Assembly (NCBI RefSeq): GCF_965363235.1 | Contig: NC_134839.1 | Location: 71,872,910-71,936,909, forward strand | Reading direction: 5' to 3' | Length of the DNA stretch: 64,000 nucleotides | DNA from: Mytilus galloprovincialis | Lineage: Eukaryota; Mollusca; Bivalvia; Mytilida; Mytilidae | Part shown: positions 13,265 to 54,640 of the stretch, in pieces | Layout: every line of letters starts with the position of its first letter | Numbering within the stretch: position 1 is the first letter of the stretch | Translations under genes and position numbers: made by a program | Notes under the pieces: generated by a model | What the model saw: the letters and a program-made list of their open reading frames with translations, nothing else | Databases searched by the model: none | Told to the model about the DNA's origin: nothing

Positions 13265-13587
13265 TCAAGTTTTCTTCTTCTTTTCTCCTTTCTTTCCTTT
13301 CTTTTCTTCTTCTTCTTCGGGTGGAAATTCTTGACATGCAACACCAATTCCATACAACAGATGTTGCACATGCTTACTGTCATATTTCATATTCTTTAAG
13401 TCATCAATTGTACACTGCCAATCCTGTATACTTGGGACGAGAGGGCACTTGATAGTGGCGGCTACTCGGGGCCAAACCCATTCTCGTTGCATGGGGTTTG
13501 TAAAATTAACTGTACCCACAAAGTTCAATATAAGTGGAATTTTTACATTGTCTAATAATATTGGTATAATACGTTTTGTTTTTGCAC
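13265..13587 (-). CDS. MYD88: MyD88 exon 5 (TIR C-terminal part and tail)
   Basis: The acceptor ATTTTAG|GTGCA opens this terminal exon. It encodes the box 3 region and a charged tail of about 17 residues, five glutamates then mainly lysines with glycines, before TGA at 13265-13267. The tail is encoded by a purine-rich near-microsatellite and may vary in length between individuals. Confidence 0.95.
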
Positions 13588-16500
13588 CTAAAATTGAAAA
13601 TAAAAAAAACCAGTTATGAATATTTTTTAAGCAAAACTAAAACCCAAAAGAAGAAATGATTTCCAGTTTTTCATTTCAATGTTTTTTATTCTATTGCTGT
13701 CGGGACGTTAAATCCTCTATCTCCTTTAACTAAATATTTAAATAATTAAAGTAATACTGAAAGGAAATAAGTACATTTACTTCTCATATCTGTCTGTAAC
13801 ACAAATATTTGGTGATTGGATTGCCCTCCCCCTTTTTAACTTCGAATTTATCATCGCATCATTTGTAACCACTTTTTAATGTCTAGATATTTTTTGGCAA
13901 TTTAGGTATTGTTATTTAACTTTTTCATTGGTCGGTGATTTACACATCTCCTGTTGTTCTTTTCTGATTATTATAAATATTCAATAACTGTTATAGGGAA
14001 CGTCGTGCTCATAACTGTTTAAAATCATAACTCTCTTCTAAATTCATTTTACTCTCTGGATAAAATTTCGAGTCAATGAAGCTAGTAGAATTTGAAAATA
14101 TCACAAAGTCTAATAAGATATACTTCAAAATATGTTTAACGTTTTAACCTTAAAAAAATAAAACATAAAAGAAGAAATAACAGTAAACAATTCCTACCTG
14201 GTGATAAGGACTGTGCTAATTTTAATGCGAAATCACAATCTTCGCTGTCCTCGAATCCTCTAGACAGTACCACTATAACTCTCCGACATCTGCAATGATA
14301 AACAATAACGAGAAACATAAGTCTTTACCCTACATCTCGTATTATTAATACAATTAGGGAATTTTTTTTTTTTATTATAACACGTTTCCCTCTATTTCTA
14401 GTTAAACAGACTAAAGGCTCTAAAGAGCCCGAGTCTATCACCTTGGTCTATGCACATATTAAACAAATGACACTCTCTAACATTATAGACGGGAATGATG
14501 ATTAGAATCCCTGTTTTGTTAATCTTCTATTACTGATCATTGAGAATTTCTAGTTTGTTAATCTTCTTTTACTGATCATTGAGAATTTCTAGTTTGTTAA
14601 TCTTCTATTGCTGATCATTGAGAATTTCTAGTTTGTTAATCTTCTATTACTGATCATTGAGAATTTTTAGTTTGTTAATCTTCTATTACTGATCATTGAG
14701 AATTTCTAGTTTGTTAATCTTCTATTACTGATCATTGAGAATTTCTAGTTTGTTAATCTTCTATTACTGATCATTGAGAATTTCTAGTTTGTTAATCTTC
14801 TATTGTTGATCATTGAGAATTTCTAGTTTGTTAATCTTCTATTACTGATCATTGAGAATTTCTAGTTTGTTAATCTTCTATTACTGATCATTGAGAATTT
14901 CTAGTTTGTTAATCTTCTATTACTGATCATTGAGAATTTCTAGTTTTTCTCTATCTTCTTAAGTTTTTGCTCAAAACACAAAAGAGGGTTTTAAAAATCT
15001 TCATTTAAGGCCGGCTAATACTCCTATAAAGAGTGACAGTCTACTGGCTATATCAGCAAACTTTGACTCAATTTGTAGAGTTCAGCATTCTGAACATTTC
15101 CGCTCATGCCAGATTTCTCTATTTATAACGGTTTTCAAAATAATAGACACAACTTGCATGTTACCCCTATATTTTAATTTCAGCCAAGTCGGCCATCTTG
15201 GTAATCGGGATCAACCGGGTTGCTTGTTGTTATTCGTAAAAGATCTTAAAACAATTATACAAATACCTTTACAAGTAATGTTACCTGTTAGCAATCATTT
15301 CTGCTGTTACTACATATTTCTCATCGCCAGCGAGATCGTCCCTACCAGGAACATATAACCTTATATTATGATCTTCTCCTTCTAAAATGTTCACCATATC
15401 TTTCATAAACTGGATATCTCGTTCTGTATTACCATAAACAACGAAAGCATCGTACCTGTCACTTTCTTCAAAATAGAAAGAAAATAAAATGTTTCATTTA
15501 ACAGTACTAATAAAAAGTAATATGTTTTATTACGGCATACTCTAATAAGAAAAGCATTTAAACGAAACAAAAAAGGCCTCATGATTTTCCCAGATACAAT
15601 TTCCACAATTTCAGTACTATGCAAGGGCCATGAAGAGAGGCGAAAGACACCAGAAGGACATTCAAACGTATAAGTTAAAAGCAAATTGATAACGCTATGG
15701 CTAAAAAAGAAAAAAGACCAATAGACAAACAATAGTACACAATGCACAAGTTGAACATAGACAATCAAAGTCTGAGCAACACGAACCCAATTAAATTGAC
15801 GTTTTAGGGAAATCAATGATAAATACTTAAATGCTCTATTTTTAGGTATGTCAGCCATTTTGGTCGACAGGCTGTAAAATGGGAGATGTTTTATGAAATA
15901 GACACGCCAATGGTCATTGTGGCCATGTAATTTCAGAGAAGATTTTTGTGAAAGATACCGACGAGGTCAACTGGCAACTCAAACGACGGACGTCAAGTGA
16001 TGGGAATAGATTATTCTGCGTTTTAGGCCAGGTGAGGTAAAAGCACAATACAAACATCTTTTCATTTCTTTTTAAACATTTCAGATATAATTTTTCGTCG
16101 TCTTTTTGCTACAGAAACACTTTTTTCCTCATTTGATAGTCATTTTATCCAGGATATAATTAAAATGATACTACGTCTTACCTGGTACCTTTGGTTTTGG
16201 TGGCAGTGGAGCACGAGCTGGTTGTTTAGAATGCTCTACATCTCTTCCTGAAATATTGACAAATCCGTCAATAAGACAATTGATATATGAAAAAATATAT
16301 CAGAAACACGGGTAATTAAACCTTCCCCTTTATACCAATAATTACAAAATTTTGTCATGCCAAAAAAAGTAGAATATATTTTGGCCAAATGTTCCAAAAA
16401 ATAAAAAGAATGAAGTGATAATTACTTTTAAAATTTGTTATTTGTAATATTTGTAATGGTGACCAAAACTTTTCATCAGTGTATTATACCTTGAATACTG

Positions 16501-21265: not shown

Positions 21266-22480
21266 CGCGGAGAACCACCAAGTTATGATGGTAAGGTCTC
21301 CTACAAATCTACAACAATCTCCTAACTTACGCACTAAGGGATTCATATTGCATATATGAGTGAGTTTATAAAGCTACAGTTATAAAGCTGCAGCCCCACA
21401 AACAGAAGCTGAAGATCATGCGAACATTTTATTTTGATTCTGTGTTTCTGTGCAAACCAATTTACAATTAAGACACCAGCACTTGTTGTAAAATTATCTA
21501 TATAGCAATATCAGGTAATATCTTTTAAAACTAGACCTTGAAAGACATGGTGCTGGTAGTTGTGACATAAAGAAATACAGGAACACCACAAACATATATT
21601 ATTTTGCACATGGTCTTGATGTGTCTATAGCTAAGCCATTTGTACATGGTTTCAATAATGTGAAATTTAACTGCCTTAATTAAGAATTACTTTAACATCC
21701 CATAACACCAGCCCTGCAAACTTGGTTAAGACGATGGAAATGTGAAGAGTTGACAGATATAGACGGGTGGACCGATGGACGCAAAGTGAGACGAGACAAA
21801 TCACAATTGCTCACCTGACCAATATTTACTAGTATTATATTTTGCAAACGAAAATTTCTACTATTACCAGCGATTTTGAATTGTCCTTTCATAATATCTG
21901 TTTTTTTTTTTACTTTTGATTTTCTGAGGTCGTGCCAGACTTTACTGTATTCTCCACAAACAACTAAAATCAGAATGAGATGCATTTACGAAGTGTTTAT
22001 TTTCTTTGGATCCCAAGTATGTGATACGGTAATAATTCGGCTAAATTTTAGGTTGCAAGTGAGAAATAAATATAGACACAGGGATACAAATTAATAAACT
22101 AACCTTTCGCTTGAGACAGTATTTCTATCTTTCATTACGAATATTATGAAAGAATCCCACCTACCGACTGTTTTCCTGACCGTGCCATAATGGAATTGTG
22201 AAAGTGAGTAAGGAATGTATTGGAACTTCATTTAACAAAGAAATTGATTATAAAAACCGCAAATACAAGGTAGCATATGTTTTTACTTTAACTGCTAAAA
22301 ACCTATTAAAGTTGTCTTCAAACGCAGCTCGATCCGCGTTTGACACCTTCCTTTGAAATAATTTATAGAACTTTAATAAATCATAGGTCAGTTGATAAGT
22401 AATCACGTTGATTCTGTTAAACTGACTGTTTTCTATACTTTGAATGTTAAAAAAAGATGGAATGGTCTCTTCTGATACTT

Positions 22481-24537
22481 AAACCAGATGCTCCGCAGGG
22501 CGCAGCTTTATACGACCGCAGAGGTTGAACCCTGAATGGTTGGGGCAAGTATGGACACAACATTCAAGCTGGATTCAGCTCTAAATTTGGATTGTGATGA
22601 AATAGTTGACACAGCATAGGTTTCTGACACAGAATGAATGTGGTCTAATGAACTTAAAATATTGTTTTTGCCTTTGAGCAATTCACTATGCTGTTGAATA
22701 TTAATCCTCTCAAAAAAATGTTTGAAGAAATTTTCTTTTTATTTATGAAATCTGAAATGAGAAAAATTTAACCCCCCCCCCCCCCATTTTTTTTCACATC
22801 CCCCTTTTCCTTTTTCTAAAACTGATTTCAATTCAAATTTCTAATGGAGTTTGCAACAATAACTACTCATTTAAATACATCATAAAATATTAAAATGTAA
22901 AATAAAGTGCTTGTTATCACTGAATGGTAAAGATTGTTTTAATTTATCAGTTGGTAGTAAAAGTGAATATAAATTGTATATTGTATAAAACAATAATTTA
23001 AGTTGATTCAACTACTATTCTGGACAAAGAAAGATAACTCCAATTGAAAATTTCTTGCTATTGCACAATATTGTGCAATTAGATATTTCTTGCTATTGTG
23101 CAATACTGTGCAATTGAAAATATTTGCTATTGCACAATACTGTGAAATTGAAGATTTCTTGCTATTGCGAAATACTGTGCAATTGAAAATTTCTTGTTAT
23201 TGTACAATACTGTGCAATTGAAGATTTCTTGCTATTGCTGAATACTGTGCAATTGAAAATTTCTTGCTATTGCATAATACTTAATATAATAATTTTGGAT
23301 CCTGATTTGAACCAACTTGAAAACTGGGCCAATAATCAAAAATCTAAGTTCATGTTTAGATTCAGCATATCAAAAAAGCCCAAGAATTCAATTTTTGTTA
23401 AAATCAAACTTAGTTTAATTTTGGACCTTTTTGACTTTAATGTAGACCAATTTGAAAACAGACCAAAAATTAAGAATCTACATACACAGAAAGATTTGGC
23501 ATATCAAAGAACCCCAATTATTCAATTTTTGATGAAATCAAACAAAGTTTAATTTTGGACCCCGATTTGGACCAACTTGAAAACTGGGCCAATAATCAAA
23601 AATCTAAGTACATTTTTAGATTCAGCATATCAAAGAACCCCAAGGATTCAATTTTTGTTAAAATCAAACTAAGTTTAATTTTGGACCCTTTGGACCTTAA
23701 TGTAGACCAATTTGAAAACGGGACCAAAAATTAAGAATCTACATACACAGTTAAATTCGGCATATCAAAGAACCCAATTATTCAATTTTTGATGAAATCA
23801 AACAAAGTTCAATTTTGGACCCTTTGGGCCCCTTATTCCTAAACTGTTGGGACCAAAACTCCCAAAATAAAACCCAACCTTCCTTTTATGGTCACAAACC
23901 TTGTGTTTAAAATTTCATAGATTTCTATTTACTTATACTAAAGTTATGATGCGAAAACCAAGAATAATGCTTATTTGGACCCCTTTTTGGCCCCTAGTTC
24001 CTAAACTGTTGGGATCTCAACTCCCAAAATCAATCCCAACCTTCCTTTGTGGTCATAAACCTTGTGTTTTATTTTCATTGATTTCTTTTCACTTATACTA
24101 AAGTTATTGTGCGAAAACCAAAAATAATGCTTATTTGGGCCCTTTTTTGGCCCCTAATTCCTAAACTGTTGGAACCAAAACACCCAAAATCAATCCCAAC
24201 TTTCCTTTTGTGGTCATAAACCTTGTGTCAAAATTTCATAGATTTCTATTTATCTAAACTAAAGTTATAGTGCGAAAACCAAGAAAATGCTTATTTGGGC
24301 CCTTTTTGGCCCCTAGTTCCTAAAATGTTGGGACCAAAACTCCCAAAATCAATCCCAACCTTCCTTTTATGGTCATAAACCTTGTGTTAAAATTTCATAG
24401 ATTTCTATTCACTTTTACTAAAGTTAGAGTGCGAAAACTAAAAGTATTCGGACGACGACGACGACGCAAGACGACGACGACGCCAACGTGATAGCAATAT
24501 ACGACGAAAAATTAAAATTTTTGCGGTCGTATAAAAA
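22481..24537. mobile_element. Family B repeat, copy B1
   Basis: The left end is AAACCAGATGCTCCGCAGGG followed by TTATACGACCGCAGAGG. The right end is GACGACGACGACGC, then ACGACGAAAAATT and TTGCGGTCGTATAAAAA. ATACGACCGCA is thus present inverted at both ends. The body holds a 35-bp tandem array at 23041-23275, about two 250-bp repeats opening with TTTTGGACC (23290-23800), and about four units of roughly 180 bp (23815-24440) with CTAAACTGTTGGGACC and ACCTTCCTTT. No long ORF is present; the short open frames are products of the repeats. The same element recurs at 47408-48984, 38464-39215 and 63619-64000. Confidence 0.85.
23041..23275. repeat. 35-bp tandem array with TTGCACAATATTGTGCAA palindromes
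   Basis: About seven units of TTGCTATTGCACAATACTGTG plus GCAATTGAAAATTTC repeat with a period of 34-35 bases. One unit contains the perfect 18-base palindrome TTGCACAATATTGTGCAA. The ATTGCRCAAT core has the form of a C/EBP-type bZIP site. Confidence 0.85.
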
Positions 24538-24601: not shown

Positions 24602-25360
24602 ATGAATGACGATTGTTATTGTACTTTTGAGGTTATGCATTACATGGTATAAAATAAAAGAGATACATAAACAATTCAAATCACAAACATGATAAGCAAG
24701 GCATTTTTAACATATCACATTTCGCTTATATAGAAGGTAGGCTGTCACTCTTTATATTAAATTATTTCCGATGAAGTATGCGTGATCTTTTATTAAGGAT
24801 AATTTAGTTCATGTAATAAAACAAGATGGATAAATCGCAGAAAAGTGTTCTCAATTTTTTTTTCGTAAAAAGACTATGTCGTCGGCTACGGCAAGTGCAG
24901 AGGATGATGCACAGATCCTCGGACATGTTTCATCTGAAATTGAGCCTAGCGGAGCGATGGCTTCCACAACTGACTAACAACATAACTGACAACTAAACCA
25001 CCATATCCTGATATCGTTTCCTTTGACATGAAAGACGACGTGAAAAAAAACTAATCTGTAATAGAGTGTGATCATTCCTAGGCTTATCAGTAAATTCCAG
25101 TTTCTATCTAGATCCACATATTAATTTTATTTTCAATAAAAGAACAAAGTTCCTATGTCTCCTGCATTGCACATATTTTATGTAACCAAGGAACAAGGGC
25201 AATAACTAATAAAAAATAATGTTTTTCCTTTTCCTTTTAAGTTTAATGGAGAAATAAAAGCTTCAGAGAAAATACAATGGGATTTCCGTTATAATTTATA
25301 TTTCAAAATGTCAAAGCTTAGGACTTGTTTCGAAATTGTCATTGCTGATGATATAACAAT
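24602..25360. other. Gene-free stretch
   Basis: No exon, RNA gene or clear repeat was found between the composite element and the CACTA-like element. Confidence 0.5.
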
Positions 25361-25400
25361 CACTACTGGACGAAAAAACGTCTGTCCATACCAGTAACAG

Positions 25401-25795
25401 TCGTTCTAAGACTGATAATGTTTGTTAAAGTTGTAACAGTTGTTAAATTTCACTGCTGCAGTTTTTTTGTAACTGTCCCAACTTTAAAAGTGTTTGTCTA
25501 CAACATAAATCGACTGTAACAACGCAAGAAATAACTGTCACCGTTATTAAAGGACTGATACAACTATTTCAAAGTTGTAACAGTTGATTTACAACTGTCC
25601 CAACTCGAACAACGTTGCAACAGTCATAAATAAACTGATTAAACGCCTAAAGGGTTGTCACAGTCGTAATAAAACTGATGCAACCATTTGAAAGTTGTAA
25701 CAGTCATTTAATTACTGTACCAACACGGAAAACGTTGAAACAGTCATAAATAAACTGTTTAAACGCAGAAAAGTTGTAACAGTTAAAATATGATA
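25401..25795. repeat. Left subterminal repeat array of the CACTA-like element
   Basis: GTTGTAACAGT and its variants (GTTGCAACAGT, GTTGTCACAGT, GTTGAAACAGT) occur at least seven times, alternating with the inverted form ACTGTCCCAAC at irregular spacing of 20-60 bases. In CACTA elements such arrays bind the transposase. Confidence 0.75.
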
Positions 25796-26879
25796 GCTAC
25801 AACCATTGTATAGGCATAGCTAATTTATAAGCGTAGCAACTTCCAAACATTGATCTTCATGTACACTTAAAAGTCACGGATACAAAATGTCTAACAGTCA
25901 GGGATATAGGTTCAATTATTTGTAAAAATAAAAATTTACTGTGTGAAATATAAGGTTGTGACAAAGAGAAACAACTATCACTCCAATGTAATACATTAAT
26001 TTTAGATAGATATTGATTTAAAAAAAAAAGTATTTTGAAATATTTGCCGCTGAACACATTTTTGTATTCCTCGGTTATTTAGTGAATGTGCTGAATTTAT
26101 ATATTTTTTTAACACTTCCTCGCCCTTATCTCTTCGAACCAATAAAATTGGAACCAGCACTAGATACCTGCAATTTCACTAGATAAAAGATATATCTACT
26201 AACAGAAAAATCGAAAAACGTTACCCAATATATTTGTTACCAAATGTATCTTTATAACTGAATTAAAAGTTGACAATTTTTATATCATCTAAATAACAAT
26301 TTAATTATTTTTCTATTAAATTAGTTAGGTGTAAAATCATTCATGCATACACGGTTGTTTTCAATACCCGTAGTTTTACGAATCACATCACTTCATAATA
26401 ACGCTGAATATACATGATATACTCTAAACCTAGCGGGGAACTCCTAATACACGCACTTGTCAAACTTGTCCCCACATAAAACTGCTTTATATTTTCTTGA
26501 GGGCTTATTTCACACACTAATTTTTGGGGGGCTACATTTCTTGTAAAATTATAAATATTGCCGTATAATCATTTTGATTTCTATACATGTAAAAAAAAAT
26601 CAGACATTTAACACATCTTTTGCAGCTATGGAAAACAAATCTTAAATCTATCTGAATTTAATTTATTTTATTTTACCGTATTTTATTTTTGAATAGGTCA
26701 ATATTAACTCGACTTTGTATTGTACATTGTACGGAATGGTCTATTTGAAGTTCAATTGTAATTGATACACATGATACAGGAAAATAGCACGTCAGCAGGT
26801 CCGAGACCACAATTGTCGTCCCTTGATTTTCGTTGTTCACGAATATAGTCCCTAGTGTTAACAGTGGGTTACTTGCCAA

Positions 26880-27470
26880 TAATTTTTATACCCCTTCCAA
26901 ATTTATTTCTCCGAGTTTAATGCCTCAAATTGTAAGTAGGGGGGTGAAATTACACTGTAAAAAAATTTGGGTCCAGAATTTTACAGGAAAGTAGTGATTT
27001 GGTCCAGCTGAAAAAGGTTAAAAATTAGCACTTCGGAAGCTGTCAAAAGATTTCAAGACACCCTAAACACAAAATTGTCCATATTTTGAGTTAGAGGCGA
27101 TGAAGTTTTCTATAATTTTGATATAATTTGTCCCAAAAGTAGTACAACACACTGTAAAAGTTTCATTGGGAAAGCGCAGGTGGGATTTTTTTTATTTTCA
27201 TTTATGTTCTAAAAGAAATGCACTACGAATTAATTGTGTTCTCGGACCAGCATTCATGATTGAGGTAAAAAAAATATTATCACTCGCGAGAAAAATTCAT
27301 ATTTTCACCGGATTTTTCGCAAAGAATTTACCATACATAATTTATGTAAATACTAGTAGATGGACGTACTGTTCAAGACCCGACAAAATAACTAGCGCAA
27401 GTGAAAGTTCAAATGTTCAAAACATGAAAACTCGCATTGTTTAAGACAGGGAAATCAAATCTTAATTTTT
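26880..27470. repeat. Unclassified segment inside the CACTA-like element
   Basis: The text from TACCCCTTCCAAATTTATTT through GGTCCAGAATTTTACAGGAA to CGACAAAATAACTAGC is non-coding and less AT-rich than its surroundings. I recall it as a dispersed mollusc repeat but there is no second copy in this window to prove it. Confidence 0.35.
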
Positions 27471-27795
27471 TTATTTTTTTCACATCACTTTTTAGAACTT
27501 GATGTATTCTTTAGACTCCGGTCTTATTAAATTCCAAAGACTGACATCGGATTCTCTTGTGTGGTTTCAGTTGATCAGATGTACTAACGTTTATCCAAAA
27601 TATTTTCCCATTTCAATTGTTTAAATTCAAATTATTTAATCCCATAAATGCTTGTACAATAATGACATATTATTCAATCAGTAAAGAAAACTAACAATGT
27701 TACTAGATAGATAGATAGATAATTATGTACAGACAATATTTTGGGTCCCTTTATATTTTTTTGTTCGGTGTGAGCCGAGGCTCCATGTTGAAGGC

Positions 27796-27953
27796 CAAGG
27801 AGCGGATCCAGCCATTTTAAAAAGGAGTTGTTACTAACCCAGGACAAAGGGGTGTTCCAATTACATGTGCCCATTCAAATGCCTTGATCGTCCAAAAAAG
27901 GGGGGTTCAAACCCCCGGAACCCCCCCCCCCCCACCCCCTGGATCCGCGCCTG
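27796..27953. mobile_element. 158-bp MITE with GGATCC inverted ends
   Basis: The left end AGCGGATCCAGCCATTTT and the right end TGGATCCGCGCCTG are inverted copies. The body (GGGTGTTCCAATTACATGTG, AAATGCCTTGATCG, GGTTCAAACCCCCGGAACCC) matches 34559-34729 along its length, proving a family. Confidence 0.8.
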
Positions 27954-28319
27954 AGGCTATACATTGACCTATAATGGTTTAATGCGTTATACATGTATAA
28001 CTTTGTAATGCTTATTGTGTTTATGGAAAACAATGGGAAAATGTTGCTTAACATCTTGTGATATAAGAAGGCATTTATTCAAAAGCAGATAGAATTGATT
28101 TGTAGAAAAACATGAATATTAAAGGGCAGATGATCAACTATTATAGTACAAGTCTTTGATTAACCACAATATTATATTTGTCATCACTGACGTATCAATG
28201 TTGCTTTTGTATACATGGTATAAAAATCCAACTTGGGTTTCTCATCTGAACTTGTTTACACGGTGTTACATTATCTAATATAGCTAGGCCTGTTATAGGT
28301 TTTTCATTATCACACTTAT

Positions 28320-28862
28320 GGGGAACTGATTTTGCTCATTGTTGAAGGATGTACAGTTACTAACAATTACATCACTTCACTTGAAGTTCCTCCATCGTTC
28401 AATTTTCATCCATGGAGATCCCTGTCTTGGTTTACGGTTGATGGTTGTCTTATTGAAATTCATACCACATCTCCTTATTCTGGTTATCATACAGTATACA
28501 TGTTATACCAATGTCCCAGGTTAGTGGGAGGGTTGGGAACTCGCTAACATGTTTAACCCCGCCACATTATTTATGTATGTGCCTGTCCCAAGTCAGTAGC
28601 CTGTAATTCAGTAGTTGTCGTTTGTTTATGTGTTACATATTTGTTTTTCGTTCATTTTTTTAAATAAATAAGGCCGTTAGTTTTCTCGTTTGAATTGTTT
28701 TACATTGTCTTATCAGGGCCTTTTATAGCGGACTATGTGGTATGGGCTTTCCTCATTGTTGAAGGCCATACGGTTACCTTAAATTGTTAATGTTTGTGTC
28801 ATTTTGGTCTTTTGTGGATAGTTGTCTCATTGGCAATCATACCACATCTTCTTTTTTATATG
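28320..28862. repeat. Dispersed repeat, tandem pair of related copies
   Basis: CTCATTGTTGAAGG(ATG/CCA)TAC(A/G)G occurs at 28336 and again at 28752. The tail GTCTTATTGAAATTCATACC at 28446 matches GTCTCATTGGCAATCATACC at 28823. The second copy ends with CACATCTTCTTTTTTAT, and tails of the same kind occur near 820, 10990, 32005, 36795 and 44045. This is a SINE-like or LINE 3'-end family of the region; no RNA polymerase III promoter was confirmed. Confidence 0.6.
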
Positions 28863-29564
28863 TTATACAAGACTAAAATACCTAGTATTATAAAATGAAT
28901 TATAACAATTGTTAATAGTTGTCAGACTTGTTATCAAAAAGCAGCTACTGTACATGTGTATAATCAAGATGTAGACATGATCACTGGTGTCAGATGTAAA
29001 CAAGAGTGACTGTGCAAATTCTGAAATGTTATCTCTGCTTTGCCTACATGTATGAAGGTTTTACTACATGTACAAGTATCACATAAACTTTCAATTTTCA
29101 TTAACCTTTGAAAATGAAGTTGCAGTCAAATTAACCATGCCACACCCTACAAACTGACATTCCATACCCATGATACCCAAAATTTAGTGATTTATACTGT
29201 CTGTGAAATAGACTTAACATTCTTAACATCCAAACCATGAAAACTAACTTATGAATATCCAATAATATGCCAAAAATAGTGATCCTATACATGTCATGCA
29301 TGTACATGTAGTTTATACTGTAGCATCTGAGAAACATTTGGAAATAGATCAAACCAAAAAAACTAAGCATTGTTCAATGAACCATGACATTTTCATTAGG
29401 GTCAAAGTCTGATGTAAGTCTTGCAATTAGACATATTCACCTTACACTCATTTCATAAACCAAATATAGTTGACCTACTTTTCCTACTGCTTGTAGTATT
29501 TTTAAACATGTGTGAGAAACAAACTTGACAAACAAGTGAAACTGCGAGCTACTGCTCACTGATG

Positions 29565-30352
29565 ATACCCCCGCCGCAAGTGGATAATATTAATAGTGTA
29601 AAAATATGGAAGTGTTCGGTAAACAGGAAGTTGTCGAGTGATGAATCTGAAAACGCATCACACGGTATAGCTGACTTATAAAAATCCTGAAACCAAATTT
29701 CAGAAATCCTTGTATCGTAGTTCCTGAGAAAAATGTGACGAAAATTTTTAACTTGGTTATCATGTGTAAAATCATACAAGTGTTCGGTAAACAGGAAGTT
29801 GTCGAGTGATGAATCTGAAAACGCATCACACGGTATACCTGACTTATATAAATCCTGAAACCAAATTTCAGAAATCCTTGTATTGTAGTTCCTGAGAAAA
29901 ATGTGACGAAAATTTTCAACTTGGCTATCATGTGTAAAATCATACAAGTGTTCGGTAAACAGGAAGTTGTCGAGTGATGAATCTGAAAACGCATCACACG
30001 GTATAGCTGACTTATATAAATCCTGAAACCAAATTTCATAAATCCTTGTATTGTAGTTCCTGAGAAAAGTGTGACGAAAATTTTCAACTTGGCTATCATG
30101 TGTAAAATCAGACAAGTGTTTGGTAAACAGGAAGTTGTCAAGTGATGAATCTGAAAACGCATCACACGGTATGGCTGACATATATAAATGTTGATACCAA
30201 ATTACAGAAAGGGTGGATGTGTAGTTCCTGAGAAAAATGTGACGAAAGTTTCATGGGACGGACTGACTGACTGATGGACGGACGGACGGACGGACAGACA
30301 GAGGTAAAACAGTATACCCCCCTTTTTTAAAGCGGGTTTAAAGCGGGGGTAT
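29565..30352. mobile_element. Family C repeat with inverted ends and 168-bp tandem core
   Basis: The ends are ATACCCCCGC (29565) and GCGGGGGTAT (to 30352). The core has units of exactly 168 bp starting near 29612, 29780, 29948 and 30116, each with GTGTTCGGTAAACAGGAAG. A GACGGA/GACGGACG microsatellite at 30258-30302 and AGAGGTAAAACAGTATACCCC precede the right end. Because 168 is divisible by three, open frames of about 200 codons run through the array on the minus strand in two frames; this is not evidence of a protein. Confidence 0.85.
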
Positions 30353-33300
30353 AATTACATGTAACTGAAGTAACCTTAATCACTGATCCATGAAATGAAG
30401 TCAGGATCAGGCCAGGCCAACCCTGCCTGACAGACACTGAGACATGTACACCTTTCAAGATACCATAACAATTAATCCAGTAACTCAATTAATATACATA
30501 CGTTATACATTTAAGACTTCAAGTGTATTTCACTGTGACTGTTCAAACAGTAATATTTTTTTGTAAACAGTTACATGTACATGTAGTGTACCATGAAAAC
30601 TAGGTGAAGTGCAATGAACAAATCAATAACAGAAACTTCATAACATTTTAAAGGAAGTATCCAGGCATTTCAGCTTCTAAAATGTATCTGGTGAAGCTTA
30701 AATACAAAACGGTACGCTGTAGCCACTGCCAGATTGTAATACATATTTCTTGGCTTGCATGCATGTACTTCAACTTTTGTTGCAGGAGGGATAATAAAAT
30801 TATACTTTAATGTACGTGCATGGTTTATTTGTTTCAAAAACCATGAACACTTGGCCACTAACATGACTATTCATGCTAATTAAGATTTTTATCTAATTCT
30901 AATTCAGACTTTAATAATTTAAGTACAGCAAGCAGTCATTTGACTCGTAAACAATTGACACGGACTGCACGAGACCCTCATAGTTGGTTAAGATGTGTTT
31001 ACACACCCTGGACATGCTGGTGGTAGTTAACAATTGCAATGCCAACATAAACTTCAGATGTGATATACATGTACTGTTTTGTTAATTTCACTGAAACTAG
31101 AAATTCACATTATCCATATTGTTATTATATTAAAATGACTGATTATCCACTAATTAAAAGTATTCATGAACTCAGATATGATGCACTATTATTAGTAGTA
31201 TTCACTGAAACTATGCATTTTCATTATTCCAAATTGCTATTTCAAATGAATAGTTATCCTGGGTATTCATGGAATTCAGAAATAATGTACTTGTATGATT
31301 GCACTATTAATATTCACTGCAACTACGAAATTTTGTTATTCCAAATTCACAATTGATCATGATAATCCAAGGTAATTAGTCCTCCAGTAATGTGGTCCTC
31401 CTTTAATACAATTTGTAATTTTCCTATTTGTACAAGGCACAATTTTCTTCTTGTCCAATTTAATCAGAACATCACATTATCATCATGGAATAATGCTGCA
31501 CGCCATATTTATAATTTCCAAAAACAATAGATAACTAGCATTAAATAATGAATTAATCCATTGTTTCACAATTTGCAGCTATACAGCGACTCAGTGACAT
31601 CTATATTTTCTATATGCATCAAAGTGCACATGTACTAGCAGGTGTCATATTTTATTAAAGTGGGAATCATGGTCAAACCAATACATATTCAGTATGATTC
31701 TACAAAATAAAATATACATTTAGACTCAAGTACAGTAAATGTTTAACTAATAATAAATATATAATACTACATGTATATACATTGTGCAATAATAAAAAAG
31801 TTAATTACAATAACTGTATTTACCTAGATAAAACTAGCACTTCTCATTTGATTGACCAAAAAATTCTAGCACTAATACAATTCTATTTTCAAGTCCCTAT
31901 TAACAAGAAAAATAAATCTTTTAAGGGGGTCTAAATTCTATATAGTGTTGTCTTTTTTCCTGCATTAATGATTTGTTAAGTGTGATTGTGTACTTTCATT
32001 GAAGGGTTACTGTCTCATTGAGGCTCACACCATACTTTTTTTCATCAATTCTTTAAAGTCAGACATCATGGACATAGTTATTCCTCTCTAAAACACAACA
32101 GGTTATTTCTTTTGTTTATTTTAATTATGTTTATGATTTAATATGAAATATACTGATACTACAAACATGACAAAGAAAAGTTTAAGGAACGAAAAAATAA
32201 AATAAATAAATGCCCTGTTACTATATACATGTAGATGATATTGACTTTACCTTTGTCCAGTGCATATAATGAATAAACCTTTGTGATGTAAAAATATTGT
32301 TCCAAGACTTAACCATCCCAGTTAATGTTTTAAATCCTTGAGTTTAATAATTTTTACATCTTTTGTGTTACCCTGAATACTTTTTACTTATTCATTTGTT
32401 ATAACAGCTTGCATTAAATAATGCTTTGCAGCTCACTTTTTTATTTAATTTAGTTATTTACCCAATTTTATTTTAATAAATCAATATTCAGATTACTTTT
32501 AAAATTTGCATTTTAATATCCAAAATAATATATATCCTGCTGTTTCATATTTTTCTTAAATTATAATTATTTTTGAAAAAGTTTTGAAGAGGACAATTTT
32601 AATCATGATAATTTGTGAACATTATTATAAAATTGTATCATTATACCAATGACAGATTAAATATCATCCCCCAGGGCAATAAACTATTGTGTCTTAATTT
32701 GTATATTAGCTAGATCATGTATATAAGAATTTCTGATTATTACCTATCGCATATCCAGTGTTAACATCATGAACATCCTGATTATTACCTATTTTAATGT
32801 CACATTTGCATGGTCATATTCAGTAAATACAAATATTTTAATTGTTAATTTTGAATTTTAATTAAAAAAATTTGTTTTAGACTAAATTAGTAGATACAAC
32901 ACATACAATGCAGTTAACACAGTATAAATTTTATGAGAACTTACTGGATAATACTATATCTATAAAAAATATTTTGAGCTTCATAAAATACTTTAAAAAA
33001 GTTTATACCATGTTAACATAAAAAAATATGCATACAGATAGATTTTTTTGTTATGTTTTCCTGACATATTGAATGTTTACATAAAATAATTATCATGATT
33101 ATGTACAAAATGCAAAAAATCTGCAGTCGTATGTGAATGCACATGATCAAAGGAGATGTGGGATATATCAATGATGCATCAACCCAACAGTTTAATAGGC
33201 AACAATAAAGTAACCAAAACACAATTGAATGCGTGTCGAAAAATATATATGACTTATGATTAGAAGGTCCTTAATCATTGCGGAATAAATATAATGACCA

Positions 33301-34150
33301 TTGAATGTTACTACTTGTAAGTTAGATAACATGTAGGGCACAAATGAATTTTGAAAAACAATGCTAACAGGGCACAATTTATATAAAAATTTCACATGAA
33401 AATATATAGTTTGGGTTCAAAGTATTAACAAATTATAGTGATTTAATATAAATTCTATGTTAAATCTAAAAAGAATAAAATTATGATGCTAGCTTTGCTC
33501 TTTTAATATGTGTTTTTTAAACAATGTAGTACATGATAAAACAATTACTATTTGAATTAGCACAATTTGTTTAATCAACTGTGTTTAAATGGCAACTGTT
33601 TATGACTCTGTGCCTTGTTCATTGTTGTTTCAGGAACATTAATTTAATAATATTGTTTTATTTTGATGATTAATGCTATTTTAAACCATTTTTTAAATAT
33701 TTATTCACTTTCAATGCCTGGCATATGCATGCTATTATCAAATATATTAATGTTTTGTTGTCCATGATTTGAGAACTATTTAAAATCTAAATGAAAATGG
33801 ACACTTGCTAAATAAGTCACTATTCAATCTTAAAGTTAATAATTTTCTTAACATTTTATGATCAAATCATATGTGTTTGTACTATGCATGTTTTTTTATT
33901 GAAATCGTGACGTCACAATGCATTCTAAATAGAACAAAAACTATCAGCTGATAAAACAAAACTAGGGAAATACTAGTAATCCAGCATAAGCATGATAAGA
34001 AACACATTTATATAGATACGTACATGTAAAGTTAAGATCGGTTGGTTGCTGGTTATAAAATGTCCAGTGACAAGTATTTCATGCAAATTTATGACCCGAG
34101 TTAGCAATACATTACCATACAATATGTACACTACATGATGTATAGGTCAG
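30353..34150. other. Gene-free AT-rich interior of the CACTA-like element
   Basis: No exon is supported. 31080-31350 contains three diverged units of about 113 bp opening with TTCACTGAAACTA (near 31087, 31200 and 31312). The rest is plain AT-rich sequence without recognisable repeats. Confidence 0.5.
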
Positions 34151-34558
34151 CATGGTCAGTGGCAGATCCAGAACTTTTCATAAGGGACAGGGCCCCTGAC
34201 TGCCCTTAGGGGCACTGATCCAGTCATGCTTGAGTGATTCCCTATATAATCGACCAAATTATTCCCACAAAAAAGGGGAAGATATAGAGTAACCTTTTAT
34301 GTATTCCACTCAGGGTGATGTATGCAAAATAATTAAGGGATTAAATGACATACACATGATAATAGGGGGGGGGGACGGTGTCCTTCGTGACTTTCAATGA
34401 TTTATTATGAAGCACAACTTTAACATTGAAGCTTAAAGGTGGCTCAAAGCTTATATTTTCCCTGGAACATGCAACTATGCACGAGTGTGGTAATATAGAA
34501 CGTCGATTCATAGCTATATATAGCCTATCGGAGTATCTCAATATAGATTCCGTAGGAT

Positions 34559-34729
34559 CAGTGGCGGATCCAGCCATTCTAAAAAAAGGGGGGGTTCCAA
34601 CCCAGAACGAAACAGGGAGAATGGGGGGGGGGGGTCCAACTATATGTCCCCATTTAAATGCATTGAGCGGCCAAAACAAAGGAGGTTCGAACCCTTGGAA
34701 CCCCCCTCCCCCTTTTGGATCCGCCAATG
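34559..34729. mobile_element. 171-bp MITE, same family as 27796-27953
   Basis: The left end CAGTGGCGGATCCAGCC and the right end GGATCCGCCAATG are inverted. The interior is shared with 27796-27953. A G run (34624-34633) and a C run mark each half. CAG(T/G)GGCGGATCC ends are typical of hAT-like MITEs. A further end fragment lies at about 34158-34240. Confidence 0.85.
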
Positions 34730-35569
34730 AGAACACATTGTAAGGTCTGTAAGCCGACAAATGTGCACATTTTCCCTTCAAAATTATGAATCCATGATTA
34801 TTCGATAGACATGCTTTAAAATATTGATAATTTCTACTCACCGATTGTATTTTCCAGCTCAGATTAATGAACATGTGGTCTAACATCTGTAGTTACCTGT
34901 GTAAAAATATAGTTTGCCGACCCGAGGTCCCGTTTTTTTTGTTTTTTTGCCGACAAAAAATTAAAGTGGATAAATCGTTTACGGTGAAGAATTGTTTTCC
35001 GTTATTAATGAAACTTGACAGATTTTACTAATTATTTTTTTAATCATCGGAAATTTCCCTCTTGGTGTGATTCGAATTGAAACGGGTTTATTATGCTGTA
35101 CAATATTGGTAACTTAGTCATAATCTTTAAATTTATTTCAGGTACACCCTTGTACATTTTTCTATTGCGCAGAATTTATCAAATATGAATTTGAATGAAT
35201 CCATTATCATCTTCTCATTCTTCTGCAATAATATTAAAACTCTATTTTAAACGAAAGCTTCTGGTTTTTAAAACCAGTTATGAACGAAAATGTTATAAAA
35301 CAGATATTATAAAATAAAAAGTAATGATATCAAAAGGATTATTTAAAGTCAAACGCACATGACTGTCAAAAATGAACGGACAATGCTACGGCAATAAATG
35401 GAAAACGACAAAAGACAAACAACGATCGCAAAATAAGTGAATAAGCAGCAAAACAAGTTTACAATCGCACGAAGGACGATAATAGTATAAGTAATGGACT
35501 ATTTCACAACAAAATCAAATCTTGAGAGCCGGGTGAGACGTGATTTTTTTTTTACACTGATGGACTACC

Positions 35570-36060
35570 GTTACGCTAAAATATTTGTATTAAAACATTT
35601 ACCGACTGTATCAACCTATGAAGTGTTTGTTTTAAACATTTAACGACTGTGTCAACCTTTTATAAGTTGTAATAAACATTTAATGACTGTGCCAACCTTT
35701 AGAAAGTTGTAACAAACATTTAACGACTGTCCCAACTCTAAAAACGTTGTGACAAACATTTTTTGACTGCATCAACGTCTGAAAAGTTGACACAAACAAA
35801 TTTTAACTGTCCCAACTATTAAAAGGTTGGGACGGACATTATGCAACTGCCACAACTATTAGAAAGACTGTAATAAATAGATTTTGACTGTGACAACACC
35901 GTAAACCACTGCAACAGTTCTGAAATGACTGATGGTAGCATTTTTTTACTTTCACAACCCGTAGCAAAGTTGGGACAGACATAAATGAACTGTTGCAACG
36001 AAATATGACAGATTTGACAGTCATTAATTGTCTTTTACAGACTAAGACAGTCGTACAACG
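35570..36060. repeat. Right subterminal repeat array of the CACTA-like element
   Basis: The same half-sites as at 25401-25795 recur, chiefly as GACTGTCCCAAC, GACTGTGCCAAC and AAGTTGTAACAAAC, with a looser period near 60 bases. The composition and the outer 45 bases show that this is the partner of the left array. Confidence 0.75.
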
Positions 36061-36101
36061 ACTGTTACTGGTATGGACAGTTGTTTTTTCGTCCAGTAGT
36101 G

Positions 36102-38463
36102 AATCTGCATGGCAAGAATTGTACACATGAGAGTGCAAACAAGACCGGATGGACGGACACCAGGTATTTCGATGATGTCCCGCGTTAATGGGATCACTTC
36201 ATTTCCTATATTCCGAAGTGCCGCTGTGATGGTGCCGTTTTTTGAGAAATGCTAGGAAAGGGGATCACTTCAGTTCCTTTATACAGAAGTGCCGCTGTGA
36301 TGGGGCCGTTTATGAGATGTCAAATATAAGATTGGTAGGAAACTTTTACATCAAATAAATAAACTATGAATTGCATTCAATTCGAGAATTTCGAGAAAAG
36401 CATTAATATATTGTTTGAAATATAATTTTATGAATTGGTGGGTATTTTGAAATTAAACAAACATCTAACCAATGACGGATTCTAGGGGAGTACATGTGCT
36501 TACAGGAACAATGTCTGAAAAAATACAATTTTCTGCATAAAATAGTCAAAAAAAAAAAATTTCGCCTCGCTCCGCTCAGCGAAGGCATCCACATCATTTT
36601 AACCCTGGCTACGCCACTGGTATTGTATTATGAAAATTATTGATGTTGTAATGTTTTTGCGCTTTGGGGTCCATAATTTGAAATAAAATCTTCCTATTCT
36701 TCTCCTTCTTTTTGAAATTACGGAGTATTTGTAATGAGAAAGATATTTTTTACCAATACAGAATTGCTAACATCCATGTCATTTGAAATTTAGTGGATAG
36801 TTGTCTCATTGGAAAATCTTTTTCAGCATCATTATTTTTCCCCACGTGACTGTATGTGCCATTTCAGATACAACGGTGCGAGTCGTTTGAGCGGTTTTAA
36901 TATTTTTATATAAAGTTATACACGTTTTTAAGATCCTTTCTGTTTTTTTCACGGCTTATTGTAATCATTTTCTTCAAAATATCTCGTTTAAAGATTCAAA
37001 CCATACTTACCAAATCCTACATCAACATACCAGTACCCCAAACCATGGTCCATTGAAACGTTTACTGTTCAACAGTTGTTATAAGGAACCGTTTCTAGTA
37101 ACATCGAAAAAATAAGTTTCAAAGATTTGTATGGTTATTGCACTTTCTCTAATAAAGTGAACAAATCTATTTTGAACAACTATTTTACAAGAACTGACGA
37201 CGCAAACTGGTCAAAAGGCAGCCTTTTATTTATTTCTGTGAACAAGTATTTATATAAATATCGCGCTTATTTTAAAATGTTAATTAATCATAGCATAATT
37301 AATCTACGTGTTTTCTACTGTGGTGACACTTACGGAGACCTGTATTTATAATAACATGTAATCTTGACATTTCCCGGTAGGTTATGAAGACATCACTGAA
37401 CAATTTATTAAAGTTGTTTTCTCTACAATGTTGTAAAATACAATTTACTATTTCACCAAATCAAACAATACTTTTGATTGGTCTAAAAAACACAAGGTGT
37501 ATAACGTTGTCATAATATGGAGCTTAGCAAGTTACATGTAGCCAATGATAGAAGACATGTATATATGTTTGTGTTTATTGTTGTTAATATGTTAAGTTAT
37601 GTGCGTTTTACATATGACAAGCATATTTCAATCATTCGATCGGTTAGTTCTGGAGGCTTGTCAATTATGTTATTATATATATGTCTTTAACTATTAGAGT
37701 TCATTTACATTTCTTTTACGGTGCCTTGTACAAGTTTCTTTGTTATAATTGGAAGAAAACAGTTAGTGCGATGTTCATTAGTCCTAACGTACTAGGTGGG
37801 TAGTATTTCTTCGTTCGTCAAAGTGTTAGAAAAAAGGTTGAACGAATACATATATTAGTGTTCTCTGTATAGGCAGCAATTGCTTACCATGTCTACCATA
37901 TCGGGTTTATTTGGCATATTCGTGTTTCAAATTATAATTTGCTTCAACAATAATGTTTATACAACTATAATTGGTTTTATCAAGATCTCTATAATCAACT
38001 GCAACTTTCAAGGTCACTGCTACTTTTACTAGACTGAAGTTAAGACTGTGACATAATAAATTTGGGTTCCATATGTTGTCTTGTACTGTTTGTCCAACTT
38101 TCACTAAACGATCCCATATACCCATATTGAAGTTAAGGTTATTAGGTCAAATGTCAAGGTCACAAAAATAATTGCCAAATTTAGTTTCCTGATGTTATGC
38201 TTTGAATGTTTGTCCTAATGTGTATCAAGCTTTAATAAACATGATAAATAATGGGCAAATAAGATGAAAATACAATTGATTTTTAGGTCACTGGATAAAT
38301 AATCGACAACTGATAAACTGAAATTTAGACAAAATTTGATTTCAGATCACTTTTTGATCACAGGTTATCCAAACTTATCTTGATAATTCCCATTTCGAAA
38401 GAAACGAGGCCCTATTGATTTTGCAGAAGCAGGTCTTGGTTATTTGTTCCTAAAATAAAAAAT
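36102..38463. other. Gene-free stretch with a short tandem duplication
   Basis: Around 36195-36315 two units of about 75 bases share GGGATCACTTCA, GAAGTGCCGCTGTGATGG and GCCGTTT. Near 36600, CCCTGGCTACGCCACTGG resembles a hAT-type terminus. No exon is seen. 37900-38300 contains several AAGGTCA words of no clear meaning. Confidence 0.5.

Positions 38464-40407: not shown

Positions 40408-54640
<14,233 letters not shown>

Follow-up and report, generated by a model that had tools for sequence, protein, structure and literature searches.

Experimental knowledge of CACTA transposons comes mostly from plants. The plant elements (En/Spm) are described as having CACTA termini, 3-bp target-site duplications (TSDs) and several hundred bases of subterminal repeats, with asymmetric subterminal regions, large sizes (20.5 kb in Tgmt*) and non-autonomous copies that are mobilised in trans (PMC2613891, PMC8978399). 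Among animals, the TRC elements (SmTRC1 and others) of the CACTA superfamily are reported with CCC-core termini and 2-bp direct repeats, the Tribolium element departing from the CACTA core by one mismatch (PMC1636069). EnSpm/CACTA is already part of bivalve repeat annotation, as counts and percentages, in accounts whose available portions characterise no family by its termini, TSDs and helper (PMC8905726, PMC11373642), and the word EnSpm is present once in a further text (PMC10137854). Here we describe a 10,741-bp element at positions 25361-36101 of a 64,000-nucleotide stretch of the Mytilus galloprovincialis genome (hereafter the window; G000:C2:71872910-71936909, in an assembly of 1.38 Gb and 331 contigs). 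Judged by titles and abstract openings, we found no literature description of the family to which it belongs. The best explanation overall, and one we hold very probable, is that this element is a non-autonomous CACTA/EnSpm transposon that would be mobilised in trans by a tnp2-type transposase.

The element opens with CACTACTGGACGAAAAAAC and closes with its reverse complement, and its extent is supported by the paired termini, the TSD and the alignment of the family. The terminal inverted repeats occupy 25361-25414 on the forward strand and 36048-36101 on the reverse strand, with a likeness between the two ends that spans up to about 71 nt at 85%. A 45-base terminus pattern written in International Union of Pure and Applied Chemistry (IUPAC) code matches 25361-25405 (+) and 36057-36101 (-) with 0 mismatches each, and was absent from 100 shuffles of the sequence even with up to 3 mismatches allowed. 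An AAT lies immediately outside each end, at 25358-25360 and 36102-36104. The initial annotation, made from the window's letters, had proposed a CACTA-type transposon with inverted ends of about 45 bases, identical AAT flanks and half-site arrays; these features were all recovered, and its coordinates proved exact.

Next to each terminus lies an array of short direct and inverted repeats, as expected of CACTA/EnSpm elements. The left array (25430-25783) holds 14 GTTGNNACAGT sites at no more than one mismatch, whose strands alternate at steps of about 20 bp from 25554 onwards, with the step at 25634 unfilled. Its counterpart on the right (35605-35999) holds 11 sites, 10 of them on the reverse strand, of which the first eight are spaced 40-41 bp apart. 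At the same threshold, the 500 + 542 terminal bases contain 25 sites, compared with 23 in the other ~63 kb of the window, while mononucleotide shuffles of the terminal bases (n = 200) gave 0.2 sites on average and never more than 2. The 14 left sites recur in six further complete copies, together with 11 or 12 right sites. The family resembles the plant elements, as described in the sources above, in its CACTA termini, 3-bp TSD, subterminal direct and inverted repeats, large size, asymmetric ends and probable mobilisation in trans; it differs from them in its animal host and in a subterminal unit, GTTGNNACAGT, set on a regular 20/40-bp grid. With the TRC elements, so far as their available description goes, it shares an animal host and, in a larger relative considered below, the Transposase_21 domain (PF02992), whereas its ends are CACTA and its TSD is 3 bp, as in plants; the CCC termini and 2-bp TSD of the TRC group were not found.

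The window element transposed into its present site. When its flanks were joined through a single AAT (176 bp), the joined sequence matched at least 40 places over 172-176 bases at 89-98%, in a search with 373 first-look candidates. Five of these empty sites were read: the two closest carry an exact single-AAT junction, and the other three differ there by a 4-bp gap. Because the joined flank is matched elsewhere, with an exact single AAT in the closest cases, the element was inserted in a dispersed repeat whose unoccupied copies represent the pre-insertion site. This target (25280-25360 and 36102-36199) is itself a repeat with at least 40 transposon-free versions at 89-98%. We inspected 29 facing pairs of ends, 28 from the match lists and one from fetched stretches; in 26 of them the flanks repeat exactly the same 3 bp, and the sequence varies from pair to pair (TGA, GAA, ATG, AAC, CGA, CCA and GTT among others). 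The duplications have a length of 3 bp and no fixed sequence, as in CACTA/EnSpm; the TWA target of Chapaev3 is not what these sites show.

The element belongs to a family spread across the same assembly. Its left-end 100 bases match at least 40 places at 99-100% and its right-end 100 bases at least 40 places at 97-100%; for 28 of the 40 left ends listed, the right-end list contains a facing partner, at spacings of 6.0-57.0 kb. Eight loci carrying the left end were retrieved, and in every one the likeness to the window begins within 7 bases of 25361. We read 20 kb from each of 10 of the 40 listed left ends (the fetched copies), and a facing end was present within that distance in six of them. 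The two shortest fetched copies measure 9,411 and 9,508 bp and several more pairs fall at 9.3-9.6 kb, so that the shortest common size of the family is about 9.3-9.6 kb. All ten keep the interior in window order over whatever length could be traced. The projection behind this result kept same-order matches only, by design; in the unfiltered match list (pieces >150 bp) the order was the same except for matches of the end arrays, matches within the tandem array and a few short repeat matches. Over the family interior (25861-35560), identity to the window per 500 bp, gaps ignored, is 96-100% in nine of the ten fetched copies and 92-98% in the remaining one, E07. Counting substitutions only, the nine lie 0.5-1.5% from the majority sequence, the window copy 0.70% and E07 4.1%, distances that point to a young, recently active family.

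Some copies are much longer. Facing ends 22.9, 27.1 and 57.0 kb apart carry matching TSDs, and by position none of these three pairs encloses a PF02992 match. The longest (G000:C13:63489738-63546738, with matching ATA duplications) is much enlarged, and its first 20 kb hold tandem arrays and long frames that we read as a retroelement. The right end of another fetched copy, E01, was not found in the ~27 kb read. In it, a 908-aa open frame (G000:C14, about 73369087-73371810) starts within the right subterminal array, with long repeated blocks beyond its end; counted from the first Met it has 902 residues, for which no Pfam or PHROG match was obtained at E up to 1. We considered this frame as a cargo or transposase gene and rejected it on those grounds: its start in the array, the lack of a family match and the repeated blocks that follow make a nested insertion the simplest account.

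The initial annotation described the window copy as seemingly emptied of its transposase. No transposase is indeed recognisable there, as the six frames of 25801-35702, with stops taken as X, contain no Pfam family at E up to 0.1, and the same library detects PF02992 in the larger relative discussed below. The absence of tnp2/Transposase_21 from the element itself is what is expected of a non-autonomous member. The copy does not, however, seem to have been individually emptied. In the two shortest fetched copies, the longest stop-to-stop frames have 141 and 130 residues. Small gaps in the copies relative to the window have lengths leaving remainders of 1, 2 and 0 on division by 3 in 103, 77 and 43 cases (gaps common to several copies were tallied once per copy), and substitutions among copies show no strong 3-base periodicity, the top chi-square of 95 sliding windows being 11.0, in the left terminal 600 bases. 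Given no Pfam domain in the window copy and no coding signal among the copies, the lack of a transposase appears to be a property of the whole family and not of this copy alone.

The initial annotation also counted at least four younger insertions within the element, a claim that was partly borne out. A 450-bp stretch flanked on each side by CAGCA (26798-27247) is missing from all ten fetched copies, its junction was read, and it is proven to be an insertion younger than the family. An 820-bp stretch with a 168-bp tandem array (29533-30352) is missing from nine of the ten and present only in E08, the copy closest to that of the window (0.7% apart); this is a probable younger insertion. At 500-bp resolution, no further stretch of the window copy was missing from most of the copies alignable at that point.

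The initial annotation had suggested a search for autonomous copies with an EnSpm-type transposase. We looked for a source of transposase among elements with the same ends, and a likely one was found. The tnp2 domain Transposase_21 (PF02992) has 49 matches in this genome and none in 14 control genomes. A 19-bp terminus at up to 2 mismatches has 217 matches in the genome, compared with 15 for its reversed control; the analysis of pairs used 100 of the 217, all exact. Among these 100 listed termini, one of the 29 neighbouring facing pairs less than 60 kb apart encloses a PF02992 match, where 0.013 would be expected by chance; this count took 48 of the 49 PF02992 matches, leaving out the one on contig C278. 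The enclosing element (C11:29849098-29874956; 25,859 bp, read in its entirety) has the same termini and a 577-aa open frame that matches Transposase_21 at E 1.3e-26. Its ends align with those of the window element at 78.7% over 447 bp on the left and 78.6% over 556 bp on the right, TAT stands on both sides of it, and its arrays match those of the window element in motif, register and asymmetry. Between the two elements, the site cores are identical at 212 of 225 positions (94%) and the spacers at 475 of 638 (74%; Fisher p 6e-12), as expected if the sites were kept by selection. Under relaxed animal-motif patterns the C11 frame matches DG..WPL, CxxC and PDGMH; relative to the motifs described for animal members (PMC1636069), it differs in the F/Y after DG of motif I and in the residue before D and the LG of motif A. 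In a protein search with this frame, the C11 copy was the only uninterrupted one among the matches listed. Other copies comprised long ones with stops at 94% and 89% identity, decayed kin lying at C12:39167022 and C10:48748322, and shorter pieces at 57-98%; the other long matches reached no more than 55%. With this relative, the CACTA/EnSpm assignment of the window element is supported by structure: the termini, TSDs and arrays, the pairing of facing ends, the empty sites and the presence of Transposase_21 in a same-ended element. The window family is probably moved by an enzyme that a related, larger element encodes in this genome, and the best candidate for that helper is the C11 element or an unsampled closer relative.

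Several observations weigh against this reading, or against parts of it. Three of the 29 facing pairs have no 3-bp TSD (E07 has AT/ATAT, and two others have none, one of these with a left flank resembling a piece of the terminus), and 12 of the 40 left ends listed are unpartnered in the right-end list, although some of these 12 gain partners among the listed 19-bp terminus matches. The C11 element is embedded in AT repeats, where a TAT on both sides counts for little taken alone. The core positions were defined from the window element, and homogenisation of the arrays could also raise core identity. Only 76 of the 115 first-look candidates in the transposase protein search were scored, and further helper copies may therefore exist. 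At only ~79% identity between their ends, the C11 element cannot be the direct parent of the window family. Beyond the end regions the interiors of the two have little in common, and what internal matches there are fall mostly in segments that resemble unrelated parts of the window as well. Since the ends differ by about a fifth and the interiors are mostly unalike, a closer helper may lie among elements not sampled.

The same dissimilarity bears on the origin of the family, whose long common interior without detected coding is, unlike that of plant non-autonomous elements as described in the sources above, not obviously a deletion product of the C11 element. We considered the 9.5-kb family as an internal deletion of that element. 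Matches in the left part and middle of the C11 element (~2.6-3.9, 8.1 and 14 kb) seemed to speak for it, but most of them lie in segments with matches to window positions 1-25000 as well. On the right-hand side, two C11 blocks match copy E04 in order and without a control match (113 bp at 72.6%; 48 bp at 87.5%), whereas two more blocks, 67 and 75 bp long, break the order. Derivation from the C11 element is thus a possible origin.

Could the two ends be independent repeats, with the 10.7-kb interval a chance arrangement or an assembly artefact? In favour of such a view, the ends are repeated genome-wide and some left ends go unpartnered. Against it, 26 of the 29 pairs carry a 3-bp TSD that agrees on both sides, empty sites exist, and the interior, so far as traced, has one order in all ten fetched copies. 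The initial annotation had named independent ends at unrelated flanks, and an empty allele not joined at AAT, as outcomes that would count against the element; the facing pairs and the single AAT of the two closest paralogous empty sites (three of the five read differing by the 4-bp gap) went the other way. We regard the independent-ends view as refuted by the TSD and empty-site results and give it almost no weight. Little more can be said for an autonomous element whose transposase is split into short exons or has diverged past profile detection. Intron-rich transposons are possible in animals and the interior is long; against this stand the six-frame search without a Pfam match, made with a library capable of detecting PF02992 in the C11 element, the mostly frame-breaking small gaps and the lack of strong 3-base periodicity. 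We consider autonomy very improbable.

More weight, although still well on the unlikely side, belongs to the view that the family is moved by something other than a C11-type enzyme, be it the transposase of another CACTA family or of another superfamily with CAC ends (Chapaev3, Transib). CAC ends are known from several superfamilies, and the genome's 49 PF02992 matches include, besides the C11 frame and its decayed kin, long ones listed at no more than 55% identity, many with open frames. Transib duplications are 5 bp and those of Chapaev3 are TWA, however, whereas the TSDs here are 3 bp without a fixed sequence. The C11 match alone sits between facing copies of the terminus among the 100 listed, and the end arrays are alike in motif, register and asymmetry with those of the C11 element, the sole transposase element compared.

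Under mobilisation in trans by such an enzyme, a tnp2-type transposase from a larger same-ended element would recognise the termini, and it or a partner protein would bind the phased GTTGNNACAGT sites, through which both ends would be paired. The element would then be excised and reinserted elsewhere with a 3-bp staggered cut. A second array-binding protein may take part, as described for Spm (PMC2613891). A more specific proposal, toward which we are mildly sceptical, is that dozens of large coding-free CACTA copies in one animal genome may rely on one transposase frame, the last to survive uninterrupted, recognised via a fixed two-helical-turn grid of sites (20-bp alternating at one end, 40-bp same-sense at the other) whose spacers have diverged by a quarter.

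The window holds further features around the element. On the reverse strand, an open frame at 17839-18348 matches the Pfam Death domain (2.1e-10), and a second frame ~4 kb beyond it on the same strand (13268-13636), without a Pfam match at E up to 0.001, presumably resembles a TIR domain. Together the two are possibly a MyD88-like immune adaptor gene, about 7 kb from the transposon. To the other side, a 467-aa frame (50857-52257, +) with the reverse-transcriptase domain RVT_1 (1.4e-37) is read as a non-long-terminal-repeat retrotransposon. A further repeat occurs twice, at 22480-23927 and 47407-48871; the copies agree at 96.9% over 1465 bp, and both hold a 35-bp tandem array and longer-period repeats.

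The family offers a caution for repeat annotation, as a 9.5-kb repeat without detectable coding may still be a mobile DNA transposon. The mussel genome contains many non-autonomous copies that are nearly identical, alongside empty sites and a single candidate helper gene, and the relation between helper and passenger, together with the role of the site grid, would be directly testable there.

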